Source of the DNA: Acetobacter peroxydans
GTDB taxonomy: Bacteria > Pseudomonadota > Alphaproteobacteria > Acetobacterales > Acetobacteraceae
Direction: 5' to 3'
DNA length: 64,000 nt
Assembly: GCF_006539345.1 (NCBI RefSeq)
Contig: NZ_BJMV01000001.1
Location: forward strand, 372,001-436,000
In this document: in pieces, positions 17,423-21,807 of the stretch
How the letters are laid out: every line of letters begins with the position of its first letter
How positions within the stretch are numbered: position 1 is the stretch's first letter
Notes under the pieces: generated by a model
Told to the model about the DNA's origin: nothing
The model's input: the letters and a program-made list of their open reading frames with translations, nothing else
Databases searched by the model: none
Translations under genes and position numbers: made by a program

Positions 17423-17900
17423 GAACGGCCAGATTACGGAAAACGGCTGGCAGCTTGCGCAGGAGGGCGTTGCCCTGCCGGAAGGTGACGTGCTGGTGCC
17501 GCTGTCCCGGCTGGCTGAAGGACTGGGGCGGAATGGCGCAGGCCGTCTTGGCGTGGTGCTTGAACCGGCTGATCGGGTTGAGAGCCTGCGTGAAGCCCTG
17601 CCCCGTCTGGCGCTCGTCTGTGTAACCTTTGGTTCTTTTCGCGATGGTCGGGCTTTCAGTCAGGCTCGCGCCCTGCGTGAGCATCTGGGCTATGCGGGCA
17701 CGGTAAGGGCTGCCGGGCATATTCTGCCTGACCAGTATGAGTTTCTGCTCCGTTGCGGGGTTTCGCAGGTTGAAATCCCGCAAGGGAGTGACCCGGCTGT
17801 ATGGCAGGCGGCTCATACGCGCTTTACCATAGCGTACCAGCCATCCGTTCTGGATGAAAAGCCCGAAGGAATGGGCCTCAGGAGATGGCTGCGTTCCTGA
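17409..17900 (+). CDS. DUF934 domain protein, sulfite reductase-associated
   Basis: A 163-residue protein overlapping the end of cysI by 14 bases, so almost certainly coupled to it. VLVPLSRLAEGL, FGSFRDGRAFSQARALR and the RRWLRS tail match DUF934, an uncharacterised family that travels with CysI in proteobacteria. SFRDGRAFSQA is the most conserved block. There is no signal peptide or membrane span. A supporting role in sulfite reduction is inferred from neighbourhood alone. Confidence 0.85.
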   Translation: MPLFENGQITENGWQLAQEGVALPEGDVLVPLSRLAEGLGRNGAGRLGVVLEPADRVESLREALPRLALVCVTFGSFRDGRAFSQARALREHLGYAGTVRAAGHILPDQYEFLLRCGVSQVEIPQGSDPAVWQAAHTRFTIAYQPSVLDEKPEGMGLRRWLRS

Positions 17901-17904
17901 TCTG

Positions 17905-19914
17905 ATGCGGCAGGCCCGCGTCATGTCCGGCCCAGTTCGTTCAGCCCTGCGCGCCGTTATGGTGGCAGGGCTGCGTGCCTATCTGGGTTTTGCCTTGCGG
18001 ACAACGCGCTGGACGATCGCACTCTCCCCCAGGTCACAGGACTGGCTGACCGGACAGGAAGGCCGTGTGGCTGTGGTGGCGTTCTGGCATGAAATGCTGC
18101 CGCTTTCGCCTGCCTTGTGGTGGTGGGCGGAGCCGCATAATCCTGCCCTCAGGCTTCGGGTGCTGATTAGTCGTAATCAGGACGGCCGGTTGATTGCCGA
18201 TGTGGTCGCCCCCTGGCGGATATGGTCCATTGCGGGTTCGAGCGATGCACGCGGTAAGAACAAGGGGGGAGCCAACGCCCTGCGCCAGATGCGCCGCAGC
18301 TTGCGGCATGGCTGCCTCGTTGCCATCACGCCTGACGGCCCGAATGGGCCGAGGCGCAAAGTCCAGCAGGGTGTGCTGGCTTTGGCGCGTCTGGCGGACG
18401 CGCCGGTGGTGCCTATTGGTGCGGTCTGTCGTGGCATTACCCTTAAGACATGGGATCGCATGACGCTGCCGCTGCCATTCGGTCGAGGCGTCCTGACCAG
18501 TGCCGATCCGCTGTTTCTTGAAGCCCTGTCGGATCAAGCAGACCCGGCGCTTGTGCTCGAACAGGCTCTTAATCAGGCTATGGAGCGCGCGGCGTCTCAC
18601 CGGAACGCGCCCTCGGATCATGACGCCAGTTTCAAGACCCTTGCCCCGCTTGATCTTACCCCTTCGCGGGCATGGTCGGTCGCGGGCACGCTGCTGACGC
18701 CGTTTCTTCCCCTGTTCCTGCGCTGGCGACTGGCACGCGGTAAGGAACTGCCTGAGCGTGTGCGCGAAAAAATGGGCTATGCTTCCCGTTCCCGCCCCGA
18801 TGGTGCGTTGGTGTGGTTTCATGCCGCCAGCGTGGGAGAGGTTATTTCCCTGCTGCCTCTTGTCCAGAAATGTCTGGTCCTGCGCTCTGATCTGCACGTG
18901 CTGTTGACGACTGGCACTGTCACAGCGGCTCAGACGGTTGCGCAGAGACTGCCGGATGCTCGGGTTATCCATCAGTTCATGCCGCTTGATGTGCCGCGTT
19001 GGGGGCGTCGTTTCCTGCGGCACTGGCGACCACAGGCTGCCGTTTTTACCGAAAGTGAACTTTGGCCGACCATGATTGGCCTGTGCCACGCGCGCAGTAT
19101 TCCCGTGGCGCTGGTCAACGGCCGCATGTCGGACAGGAGCTTCAAACGCTGGCAGCGTATGCCGGTGGTAGCGCGCGCCATGCTGGAACGCTTTGCATGG
19201 GTCTGTCCCAGAAGCCCGGAGGATGCTGAGCGCCTGTCTGCTCTTGGAGCAGCCACCACCCTGCCCGTTGGTGATCTCAAGCGTGCGGCTGCTCCGTTGC
19301 CGGTGGATGAGGCGGAGCTTGCCCGTTTGCAGGCATGTCTGGCCGGGCGGCCGGTCTGGCTGGCGGCCTCTACGCATATGGGAGAAGAGGTGGCGATTAT
19401 CGACGTGGCGCGAACGCTGTCGCATGAGATGCCTGACCTGCTGACAATTATCGTGCCCCGCCATCCTGAACGGGGTGCGGATGTTGCCGCACTGGCCGGT
19501 GGCGCTCCCCGGCGTCAGCTTGGGCAGATTCCCCAAAAGCGGGATCATGTCTGGGTGGCGGATACGCTGGGTGAACTCGGACTGTTCTTCAGGCTGGCGA
19601 CATGCGTTTTCATGGGGAACAGCCTGCCAGGGTGTAAAGGTGGGGGGCATAACCCGTATGAACCAGCCCGGCTTGGCTGTGCGGTTGCTACCGGGCCGCT
19701 GACCGGCAATTTTACCGAAGCCTATGAGCATTTTGGTGCAGCTATAACGACCGTGGCCGATGAACGGGCTCTGGCGGCGTGGGTGCGGCGTGTCGTGAGC
19801 AATCCGGCCGTAAGGGAAAATCTGGGCGACGCCGCGCGGGCGGTTGCTCTGGCGGATCAGTCTCTGGTGGATCGTCTGGCCGAGCGGATTTTGGCGCTGT
19901 CATGGTCATGCTGA
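17905..19914 (+). CDS. waaA: Fusion protein: DUF374 acyltransferase-like domain + Kdo transferase (WaaA/KdtA)
   Basis: One uninterrupted frame of about 669 residues with two domains. Residues 1 to about 225 are DUF374, a lysophospholipid-acyltransferase-like family, with VVAFWHEMLPLS (the block usually holding the catalytic His), SRNQDGRLIADV and AITPDGPNGPRR. From about residue 252 it is Kdo transferase, with the catalytic Glu in FHAASVGEV, FTESELWPTMI and the C-terminal GGHNPYEPARLG. WaaA adds Kdo to lipid IVA at the inner membrane. DUF374 is normally a separate neighbouring gene. ATG 17905 is my choice; ATG 17923 is equally possible. lpxK overlaps the end. Confidence 0.9.
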   Translation: MRQARVMSGPVRSALRAVMVAGLRAYLGFALRTTRWTIALSPRSQDWLTGQEGRVAVVAFWHEMLPLSPALWWWAEPHNPALRLRVLISRNQDGRLIADVVAPWRIWSIAGSSDARGKNKGGANALRQMRRSLRHGCLVAITPDGPNGPRRKVQQGVLALARLADAPVVPIGAVCRGITLKTWDRMTLPLPFGRGVLTSADPLFLEALSDQADPALVLEQALNQAMERAASHRNAPSDHDASFKTLAPLDLTPSRAWSVAGTLLTPFLPLFLRWRLARGKELPERVREKMGYASRSRPDGALVWFHAASVGEVISLLPLVQKCLVLRSDLHVLLTTGTVTAAQTVAQRLPDARVIHQFMPLDVPRWGRRFLRHWRPQAAVFTESELWPTMIGLCHARSIPVALVNGRMSDRSFKRWQRMPVVARAMLERFAWVCPRSPEDAERLSALGAATTLPVGDLKRAAAPLPVDEAELARLQACLAGRPVWLAASTHMGEEVAIIDVARTLSHEMPDLLTIIVPRHPERGADVAALAGGAPRRQLGQIPQKRDHVWVADTLGELGLFFRLATCVFMGNSLPGCKGGGHNPYEPARLGCAVATGPLTGNFTEAYEHFGAAITTVADERALAAWVRRVVSNPAVRENLGDAARAVALADQSLVDRLAERILALSWSC

Positions 19915-20912
19915 AGCCGCCTGCCTTTTGGAGAAACCCCGTAGGGCGTGTCTTGCCTGCTCTGCTCGCGCCAGTAGAAAAGCTGGTGATCCGTGCGGCC
20001 CGGCGACGCCAGGAAAAGCCGGGATGGTGCGCGCCTGTTCCGGTCTTGTGTTGTGGGAATGTGAGTGTAGGTGGAACGGGTAAGACGCCTGTTGTCATGG
20101 ATCTGGCGCAAAGGCTGATCCGGCGCGGTAGAAAGCCGCATATTCTTTCACGCGGGTATGGCGGGCGCGTTCCTGACGGCACGCAGGTTGATCCGAGCAG
20201 GCACAAAGCACGCGATGTGGGCGATGAGCCCCTGCTGCTGGCCGGTATATGTCCGGTCTGGGTCGGGGGGGATCGGGCGCTGGGGGCGCAGAGAGCGATA
20301 GAATCTGGGGCGGACTGTCTACTGATGGACGACGGGTTTCAGAACCCGGGACTAGCCAAGACCGTATCCCTGCTCGTCGTCGATGGTGGCGCCGGGATAG
20401 GCAACGGGCATGTGCTGCCGGCGGGGCCGCTGCGCGAACCATTGAACGACGCGCTGGCCCGGAGTACGGCCGTGCTTGTGACAGGCGCGGATGTAACGGG
20501 CGTTCTGTCCGCGTTGCACGTGTACGGAAAGCCGGTTTTGCAGGCCTCTTTTGCGCAGTCAGCCGAAGTCGCGGCATTGATGGGGCAGCCATGTGTTGCG
20601 TTTGCGGGTATCGGGCGACCGGAGAAGTTTTTCGACACCTTGCGCGCGGCGGGCGTAACGTTAGTGGAGACGAGGGTTTTTCCGGATCATTATCCCTATA
20701 CGGCGTCCGATCTTGCGCGGCTGGAGGCCGAGGCGCAGGCGCACGCTGCTGTACTGGTAACCACCCCCAAGGATCATGTGCGCCTGCCCCCGGCATTTCA
20801 GCCTCGGGTTATCGGCGTCGGTGTGGATTTGATCTGGCGGGACGAGGCCGATCCCGAATGGATTCTGGATCGGCTTCTTGAAGGAGAGCAGCATGGCGGC
20901 GTGGTTTCGTAA
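19908..20912 (+). CDS. lpxK: Tetraacyldisaccharide 4'-kinase
   Basis: Phosphorylates the 4' position of the lipid A disaccharide to give lipid IVA, the acceptor for WaaA encoded just upstream. The P-loop SVGGTGKTP is at residues 53-61, and SRGYGGR, GDEPLLLA, DDGFQNPG and the PDHYPY block are all LpxK markers. The 334 residues are family length. The start overlaps the waaA stop by 7 bases (ATG 19908; ATG 19902 is in frame), so translation is coupled. It ends inside the ribosome-binding region of the next gene. Confidence 0.95.
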   Translation: MLKPPAFWRNPVGRVLPALLAPVEKLVIRAARRRQEKPGWCAPVPVLCCGNVSVGGTGKTPVVMDLAQRLIRRGRKPHILSRGYGGRVPDGTQVDPSRHKARDVGDEPLLLAGICPVWVGGDRALGAQRAIESGADCLLMDDGFQNPGLAKTVSLLVVDGGAGIGNGHVLPAGPLREPLNDALARSTAVLVTGADVTGVLSALHVYGKPVLQASFAQSAEVAALMGQPCVAFAGIGRPEKFFDTLRAAGVTLVETRVFPDHYPYTASDLARLEAEAQAHAAVLVTTPKDHVRLPPAFQPRVIGVGVDLIWRDEADPEWILDRLLEGEQHGGVVS

Positions 20913-21807
20913 GGCAGGGCAGTGGCTTGAAGCCTGCGTCGCGCAAGGATTGCTGGCATTTCTGGGGCGAATGAAACCTGAAACGGCTTCGACCTTTGCT
21001 GGCGCGCTGGCGCGCGGTATTGGCCCCTGGCTGCCTGTCTCCCATGTGGCGGAGCGTAATCTTGAACTCGCCATGCCGGAACTGACGCCGCGCGCGCGGC
21101 GTACTATTATCTGCGGCGTATGGGAAAATCTTGGCCGCACGGTGGGGGAATTGCCCCACATTGCCAGCCTGCAGGAAAATACCCGGTCCGGTCCGGGCTT
21201 TGAAGTGCAAGGGGCGGATTATCTGCACGAGCAGGCCCAGCGAGGCGGGCCTGTGCTGCTGGTATCCGGGCATATTGGAAACTGGGAAATGCTGCCGCCA
21301 GCGGTGGCGCGGCATGGGCTGCCGTTTGCATCGTTCTACAGGGCTGCGGCGAACCCGCGGGTCGATGCGTTGATCAGAACCCTGCGGGATGAGGCCATGG
21401 GGGAAGAAAAGGTGCCGCTTTTTGCAAAAGGAGCGAAAGGCGCGCGGGAAGCATTGGCCTACGTTGCCAGGGGTGGTCGCCTTGGCATGCTGGTGGACCA
21501 GAAAATGAATGACGGTCTGGAGGTCACGTTCTTCGGGAAACCTGCCATGACGGCCCCTGCCCTTGCGGCCATGGCCTTGCGGTATCGTTGTCCGGTCATT
21601 CCGGGTTACGTGGTGCGTTTGGGGCCTGCCCGCCTGCGTGTTGTGGTGGAAGCACCGCTGCCTCTGCCAGACACAGGAGACAGGCAGGAGGATACCCGCC
21701 TGCTGACACAGGCAATCAATGACCGCCTTGAAAGCAGGATACGCCAGAGACCACAGAGCTGGCTATGGCTGCACAGGCGGTGGCCCAAATCCTGCTATCG
21801 GGTCTGA
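20893..21807 (+). CDS. Lipid A biosynthesis acyltransferase (LpxL/HtrB-type)
   Basis: Inner-membrane acyltransferase expected to add a secondary acyl chain to Kdo-lipid A. The catalytic H-x4-E motif is H127-E132 in SGHIGNWE. The second block FYRAAANPRVD and the third GMLVDQKMNDGLEVTFFGKP follow in order. The N-terminus carries a hydrophobic anchor region. The ATG giving MAAWFRKAG has GGAG just upstream and overlaps the lpxK end by 20 bases. LpxL and LpxM cannot be separated by eye, so no symbol is given. Confidence 0.9.
   Translation: MAAWFRKAGQWLEACVAQGLLAFLGRMKPETASTFAGALARGIGPWLPVSHVAERNLELAMPELTPRARRTIICGVWENLGRTVGELPHIASLQENTRSGPGFEVQGADYLHEQAQRGGPVLLVSGHIGNWEMLPPAVARHGLPFASFYRAAANPRVDALIRTLRDEAMGEEKVPLFAKGAKGAREALAYVARGGRLGMLVDQKMNDGLEVTFFGKPAMTAPALAAMALRYRCPVIPGYVVRLGPARLRVVVEAPLPLPDTGDRQEDTRLLTQAINDRLESRIRQRPQSWLWLHRRWPKSCYRV

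Follow-up and report, generated by a model that had tools for sequence, protein, structure and literature searches.

A DUF374 (LpxJ-family) domain fused to the Kdo transferase WaaA in Acetobacter peroxydans: a probable bifunctional enzyme of late lipid A synthesis

Introduction

Proteins of the DUF374 family have been named LpxJ and have a published activity as 3' secondary lipid A acyltransferases (PMC6148475, PMC6286764). The activity is documented for epsilonproteobacteria and Rickettsia in PMC6148475, which reports that LpxJ of Rickettsia typhi carries out 3' secondary acylation when placed in E. coli. According to the same report, each of the changes W60A, H61A, D86A, D132A, W172A and D173A abolishes activity while H84 is dispensable, and H61 is proposed to be the catalytic base with D132 as its partner in the dyad (PMC6148475). 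Three epsilonproteobacterial LpxJ enzymes are reported not to require Kdo in the assays of PMC6286764, where those of Campylobacter jejuni and Wolinella succinogenes worked solely before LpxL and where WaaA is described as taking substrates that bear anything from three to six acyl chains. The LpxJ proteins of Helicobacter, Campylobacter, Wolinella and Rickettsia are, as far as these accounts go, described as separate proteins.

A fusion between neighbouring genes, one of which belongs to the lipid A pathway, is known in the case of LpxC/FabZ (as reported in PMC3087551). The locus analysed here likewise joins two neighbouring genes, one of them from the lipid A pathway; the enzymes and the lineages differ. 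In Acetobacter peroxydans, a DUF374 domain precedes WaaA in one and the same reading frame. We describe this gene, its distribution among relatives and the readings that may account for it.

Results

A single open frame for two domains

The gene lies within a 64,000-nucleotide stretch of the A. peroxydans genome (the window; Table 1). On the forward strand, the segment from 17854 to 19914 is an open frame with no stop up to the TGA at 19912-19914, and Pfam places both DUF374 (PF04028, E 4e-19) and the Kdo transferase family (PF04413, E 1.8e-58) in it. This bears out the sequence-only reading, which had a DUF374 domain and a complete WaaA joined in one stop-free frame between 17905 and 19914. 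The ATG at 17905 is positioned roughly as the starts of close relatives are; a second in-frame ATG, at 17854, lies within the upstream DUF934 gene and is less likely to be the start.

The fused gene is preceded by a sulfite reductase-like gene and the DUF934 gene, and is followed by lpxK, an LpxL-like gene and a gene of the inositol-monophosphatase family. An overlap with lpxK, also proposed from the sequence, amounts to 13 or 7 bases depending on which of two ATG codons (19902 or 19908) starts lpxK. Among 66 Acetobacteraceae loci laid out, lpxK adjoins waaA in all 60 that are sufficiently long, and an lpxL-like gene is also present in 52 of these. The genome to which the window belongs contains a single match each to DUF374 and PF03279. 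Scans of the 64-kb window for tRNAs and Rfam families gave no matches.

Table 1. Positions in the window of the fused gene, its domains and residues, and the two genes downstream.
Feature	Position	Strand	Details
Fused gene, LpxJ-like (DUF374) + WaaA	17905..19914	+	669 aa; open frame, Pfam, start compared with relatives
N-terminal LPLAT-fold acyltransferase domain	17905..18606	+	residues 1-234; AlphaFold of 1-238, fold matches
W61-H62	18085..18090	+	counterpart of R. typhi LpxJ W60-H61; invariant 80/80 (alignment A3)
Pfam DUF374 (PF04028) core	18145..18354	+	68.4 bits, cut-off 26.8
D93	18181..18183	+	counterpart of R. typhi D86; D in 79/80 (A3)
D144	18334..18336	+	counterpart of R. typhi LpxJ D132; invariant 80/80 (A3)
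W183-D184	18451..18456	+	counterpart of R. typhi W172-D173; W 80/80, D 69/80 (A3)
Linker	18607..18657	+	about residues 235-251, flexible; lowest model confidence, coding-type substitution
WaaA N-terminal helix	18658..18735	+	residues 252-277; model helix, same segment in WaaA-only relatives
WaaA GT-B glycosyltransferase	18736..19911	+	residues 278-669; PF04413, match to 2xci
lpxK	19902..20912	+	start ATG 19902 or 19908; PF02606 E 3.6e-89
LpxL-like late acyltransferase	20878..21807	+	PF03279 E 6.9e-44; sole PF03279 match in own genome

The N-terminal half resembles LpxJ

All six residues essential in R. typhi LpxJ have counterparts in the DUF374 half (W61, H62, D93, D144, W183 and D184); these were located with the help of the published residue numbers (PMC6148475), the motifs and their spacing rather than by sequence alignment with a characterised LpxJ. 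The six are invariant in 33 of 33 aligned Acetobacteraceae fusions, one of them from the doubtful genome G216 discussed below. As in LpxJ, the HX4D/E motif is absent: H62 is followed by E-M-L-P-L, so that the fifth residue is a leucine. PF03279, the family of LpxM, is not among the five Pfam families matched by the fused protein at E values up to 0.1.

The exceptions at D184 come from one type of fusion. In 11 of the 80 sequences of alignment A3, all of them Hyphomicrobiaceae-type fusions, the counterpart of D173 is S (10 sequences) or C (one), and in this they depart from the described LpxJ enzymes; given the replacement of an essential Asp, their activity may differ. The loci concerned are L066-L068, L070-L072, L076, L077, L115, L117 and L063. 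In the same type of fusion, the TPDGP motif reads T-A-D-(V/I/M)-P.

An AlphaFold model of residues 1-238 alone is of high confidence (pLDDT 94.0, pTM 0.90). A Foldseek search with it returned 11 matches at E <=0.001, namely PlsC, plant or algal GPAT and PatA (E 2e-7 to 4e-4). With VIA-align, the best agreement was with GPAT (Z 13.2, rmsd 4.1, 217 residues aligned), PatA (Z 12.6, rmsd 3.9, 178 aligned) and PlsC (Z 12.3, rmsd 3.9, 185 aligned), followed by LpxM (5knk; Z 10.3, rmsd 6.2, 186 aligned). A complex I assembly subunit (7zkq_T) also scored Z 10.3, and unrelated structures below LpxM fall to a Z of about 6. By sequence, the PDB held no relative of the DUF374 half at E values up to 10.

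Thus, the DUF374 half shares with LpxJ the Pfam family, the six essential positions, the lack of HX4D/E, a predicted LPLAT fold and a lipid A setting, and it differs in being fused to WaaA. With LpxM it likely has the 3' site of action in common, and the overall fold is similar; the family is another one, as seen from the missing PF03279 match and HX4D/E motif. The view that DUF374 has no proven function, taken in the sequence-only reading, is outdated by the published work on LpxJ. The same reading suggested that DUF374 may act on the lipid A-Kdo intermediate. Action on a lipid A precursor is very likely; the Kdo-bearing form is only a possible substrate, the three epsilonproteobacterial enzymes being reported not to need Kdo.

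The C-terminal half is WaaA and keeps its own helix

A model of the whole fusion (pLDDT 93.6, pTM 0.83) was used in a fold search in which the rows returned all fell on the WaaA half; the DUF374 half was therefore folded separately. Residues 278-668 superimpose on Aquifex aeolicus WaaA (2xci) with a Z of 32.9 and an rmsd of 4.3 over 347 aligned residues. In the alignment, residues E31, E98, K162, R212, N273 and E276 of the A. aeolicus enzyme, taken from the list of functional residues in PMC6286764, correspond to E312, E383, K459, R519, N583 and E586; 8 of the 44 fused sequences have D in place of E383. Five NCBIfam models (PRK05749) match the fused protein, none of them to its cut-off (best E 9.2e-114, 380.6 bits against 617), a shortfall that concerns the lineage-specific subtype and not the identity of the enzyme. 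This half thus shares with known WaaA/KdtA proteins (PF04413; A. aeolicus 2xci, Acinetobacter baumannii 4bfc) the GT-B fold, counterparts of the catalytic and CMP-binding residues and the N-terminal helix, and the protein differs from them by its extra N-terminal acyltransferase domain.

The helix bears on whether DUF374 might be a mere membrane tether or scaffold for WaaA, an alternative raised in the sequence-only reading together with the suggestion that the domain replaces the usual N-terminal anchor. In the model, residues 252-277 form a helix (block means 79, 96 and 97), and a segment matching it opens the WaaA of relatives that have no DUF374. Since WaaA retains its own helix, and WaaA-only relatives carry the same segment, DUF374 is no substitute for the anchor. 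A fairly hydrophobic helix at residues 10-33 would suit a tether; the conservation of all six LpxJ-essential residues argues against one, as does the retained WaaA helix, and we regard this alternative as most improbable.

The linker behaves as coding sequence and is flexible

Confidence in the model is lowest at the linker, with block means of 77, 57 and 79 over residues 231-260. Across eight species pairs, two of which share a genome, differences in the linker fall at codon positions 1, 2 and 3 in the numbers 65, 42 and 122 over 245 codons; with this excess at third positions, the linker behaves as coding sequence.

We considered whether an internal start before WaaA could yield two proteins from one gene. 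Some fused genes do have an ATG or GTG in frame in the linker region, including that of the window, which has one of each, neither with a Shine-Dalgarno match. No conserved internal start or Shine-Dalgarno sequence was seen before WaaA in the fused genes, and five of them (L032, L034, L261, L263 and L264) have no ATG, GTG or TTG across the 60-codon stretch examined, which makes two products from one gene very unlikely.

Distribution of fused, separate and WaaA-only arrangements

The sequence-only reading had proposed mapping the two domains across the Acetobacteraceae. In 67 hand-picked genomes of the family, a single stop-free match over both halves was found in 28, including the window's own, and WaaA without a full DUF374 in 12. 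The arrangement is separate or broken in 26 (for example, one stop parts the halves in G001, and the linker of G247 has a frameshift), and neither half was matched in one (G065). The presence of stop-free fusions in other genomes rules out a sequencing error hiding a stop in the window, and a concealed stop or frameshift near 18650 is thereby excluded for the lineage, even with G216 counted as a doubtful member of the 28.

Three cases call for comment. G216 (locus L040) carries single-base differences near the end of DUF374, and also in lpxK, relative to the 95% identical G124; we rejected it as a recent natural fusion, and a frameshift or assembly fault is probably responsible. G215 (L037) is fused and G247 (L038) split because their linkers differ in length by one base, in sequences 99.4% identical over 8.3 kb. 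G247 is presumably the RioGene sequence of Gluconacetobacter diazotrophicus PAl 5. A comparison of two PAl 5 sequences lists a role termed 'Protein of unknown function DUF374' as unique to the RioGene one (as reported in PMC3035290), and for the split in G247 this difference would fit a difference in sequencing. Finally, G065, a genome 96% complete, gave no WaaA match and a weak PF03279 match; it possibly lacks a Kdo-type LPS or has an assembly gap.

Named records extend the picture beyond the family. Among the best 80 of 583 confirmed candidate loci, a sample biased to good matches whose fractions are not frequencies, 23 are cleanly fused, 46 carry two separate genes and 10 carry WaaA alone; the remaining locus, L069 (Asaia astilbis), is fused with its frame broken inside DUF374. 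The two genes are thus adjacent yet separate in many alphaproteobacteria, as the sequence-only reading had held. Eleven of the clean fusions are from Acetobacteraceae (Acetobacter, Gluconacetobacter, Gluconobacter, Asaia and one metagenome genome) and 12 from elsewhere, with 10 of the latter labelled Hyphomicrobium, Filomicrobium or Methyloligella. Among the matches listed for 385 genomes across the class, one span is free of stops (the window's own) and 16 contain one to three in-frame stops.

WaaA-only loci take several forms. In L065 (Komagataeibacter europaeus), L230 (G073) and L233 (G060), DUF374 is absent, 154-229 bases lie between the end of the DUF934 match and the WaaA match, and the N-terminal segment of WaaA is kept. 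A clade with genomes of 1.9-2.2 Mb (L244-L250, from G101, G032, G070, G061, G029, G116 and G066) has WaaA, LpxK and one LpxL-like protein without DUF374. L251, from a 1.7-Mb genome of the window's genus (G210), also lacks DUF374, and its WaaA match extends over two frames, which suggests decay or a sequencing error. A search for DUF374 relics in the 13 WaaA-only loci gave nothing convincing, the best tblastn hit having an E of 0.022 (L244).

Origins and losses of the fusion

In a tree of WaaA plus LpxK (107 rows, short search), the fused label changes 11 times, counting the doubtful cases G216 and G247, and 9 of the changes are forced by well-supported branches. Two large fused groups, the acetic acid bacteria and the Hyphomicrobiaceae, stand apart, and isolated fusions occur beside unfused relatives (G071; G043 with its copy L061). 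A single fused clade was rejected on 46 of the 107 rows (p-AU 4e-6), and again on 43 rows with the isolated G216, G071 and G043 left out (lnL difference 167.9, p-AU 1.2e-5, two changes). Both subsets were chosen after the larger tree had been seen, and neither includes the 13 WaaA-only rows or the unfused rows that fall within the fused acetic acid bacteria (G247, G040, G246, G173 and G122). Given this choice of rows, we hold it firm that the fusion arose at least twice independently, and further origins as likely only.

The most likely route is loss of the stop between adjacent genes in the same frame, which is the simplest one since many relatives have both genes in the same frame, parted by a stop. 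In the opposite direction, the occurrence of WaaA alone beside fused relatives in the Komagataeibacter-like genomes and the small-genome clade suggests that the DUF374 half was lost there.

At least two origins suggest that the fusion is easily tolerated, perhaps favoured. At one end, the fusion could be near-neutral, two independent enzymes having been tied together by loss of a stop codon with neither channelling nor coupling; this concerns the benefit of the fusion and is compatible with a bifunctional protein. The 16 gene pairs listed as parted by just one to three stops, the isolated fusions amid unfused relatives, the 12 of 67 genomes that do without DUF374 and a flexible linker of variable length all favour it. 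Retention of the fusion across Acetobacter, Gluconacetobacter, Gluconobacter, Asaia and the Hyphomicrobiaceae rows, in two groups of separate origin, pulls the other way, and we see this reading as evenly poised. At the other end, the protein could be a coupling enzyme that makes 3' acylation and Kdo transfer take place on one precursor molecule through proximity or handover. The two halves would have a substrate in common; LpxJ enzymes acted independently of Kdo in assays, and those of C. jejuni and W. succinogenes only before LpxL, as reported in PMC6286764; and retention followed independent origins in two large groups. Against coupling stand the flexible linker and the several losses of DUF374 with WaaA kept, which argue against any strict need for the fusion partner; we consider it possible, on the unlikely side.

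Gene content and the number of acyl chains

One DUF374 and one PF03279 gene, as in the window's own genome, are enough for two secondary chains. Lipid A of two Acetobacter pasteurianus strains is reported to be hexa-acylated (PMC8036547). G242, a genome of the window's genus whose WaaA and LpxK are identical to those of A. pasteurianus LMG 1262, has one PF03279 gene, and by analogy the six chains would match, as expected, four primary chains plus one added by each of LpxL and LpxJ. Simple gene counting fails in places, since the number of PF03279 matches is one in 19 of the 28 fused genomes and two or three in the other 9. For the 12 WaaA-only genomes, each with a single PF03279 match, penta-acyl lipid A is predicted, the small-genome clade (L244-L250) included.

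Granulibacter bethesdensis may not follow this rule. Its lipid A is reported to be penta-acylated, in a paper that puts the secondary chain at N-2' in its abstract, gives N-3 in its results and states that the amide positions could not be assigned precisely. A candidate for Granulibacter (the genus with handle g100) has both DUF374 and PF03279 genes; if it is indeed Granulibacter, gene content does not predict acyl number there. On a separate point, KdsC (TIGR01670) had no match in the window's own genome (G000) and none above cut-off in the nine Acetobacteraceae genomes searched; this is in line with the reported lack of KdsC in Granulibacter.

Discussion

The window presents one frame with both folds predicted and both sets of catalytic residues intact, in a genome with one LpxL-type and one DUF374 gene. 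The explanation that we consider probable is a bifunctional LpxJ-WaaA enzyme acting late in lipid A synthesis. Its N-terminal LPLAT-fold domain would use acyl-ACP as the donor of a fatty acid and attach this to the hydroxyl on the 3'-linked acyl chain of the tetra-acyl product of LpxK. Its C-terminal GT-B domain would use CMP-Kdo as donor and place Kdo at position 6' of that precursor molecule, and both domains presumably work on the cytoplasmic side of the inner membrane. The neighbouring LpxL would then add the 2' secondary chain, for a total of six. By analogy with characterised relatives, we infer for the fusion these reactions, the position acylated and the independence from Kdo. The Kdo-independence of LpxJ and the breadth of substrates taken by WaaA mean that both halves could use the LpxK product, in either order.

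A more specific proposal would have the separate, long-kept fusions of acetic acid bacteria and Hyphomicrobiaceae be coupling enzymes, pairing Kdo-independent 3' acylation with Kdo transfer in a late assembly with LpxK and LpxL, and would have the LpxJ-less lineages (Komagataeibacter and the small-genome relatives) make penta-acyl lipid A. Taken as a whole, this proposal is doubtful.

Both enzymes are known already. In the open-licence literature searched, we found no description of an LpxJ-WaaA fusion and no activity measurement of one. The acyltransferase half can be hidden by annotation, as the five matching NCBIfam models name just the Kdo transferase.

The fusion places LpxJ at a defined step, with a defined substrate, in a group in which Rickettsia is the one case where we have seen LpxJ tested. 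Relatives with fused, separate and LpxJ-less arrangements form a natural comparison set, and the number of acyl chains expected from gene content is a testable prediction in the acetic acid bacteria, organisms of vinegar and of insect guts.
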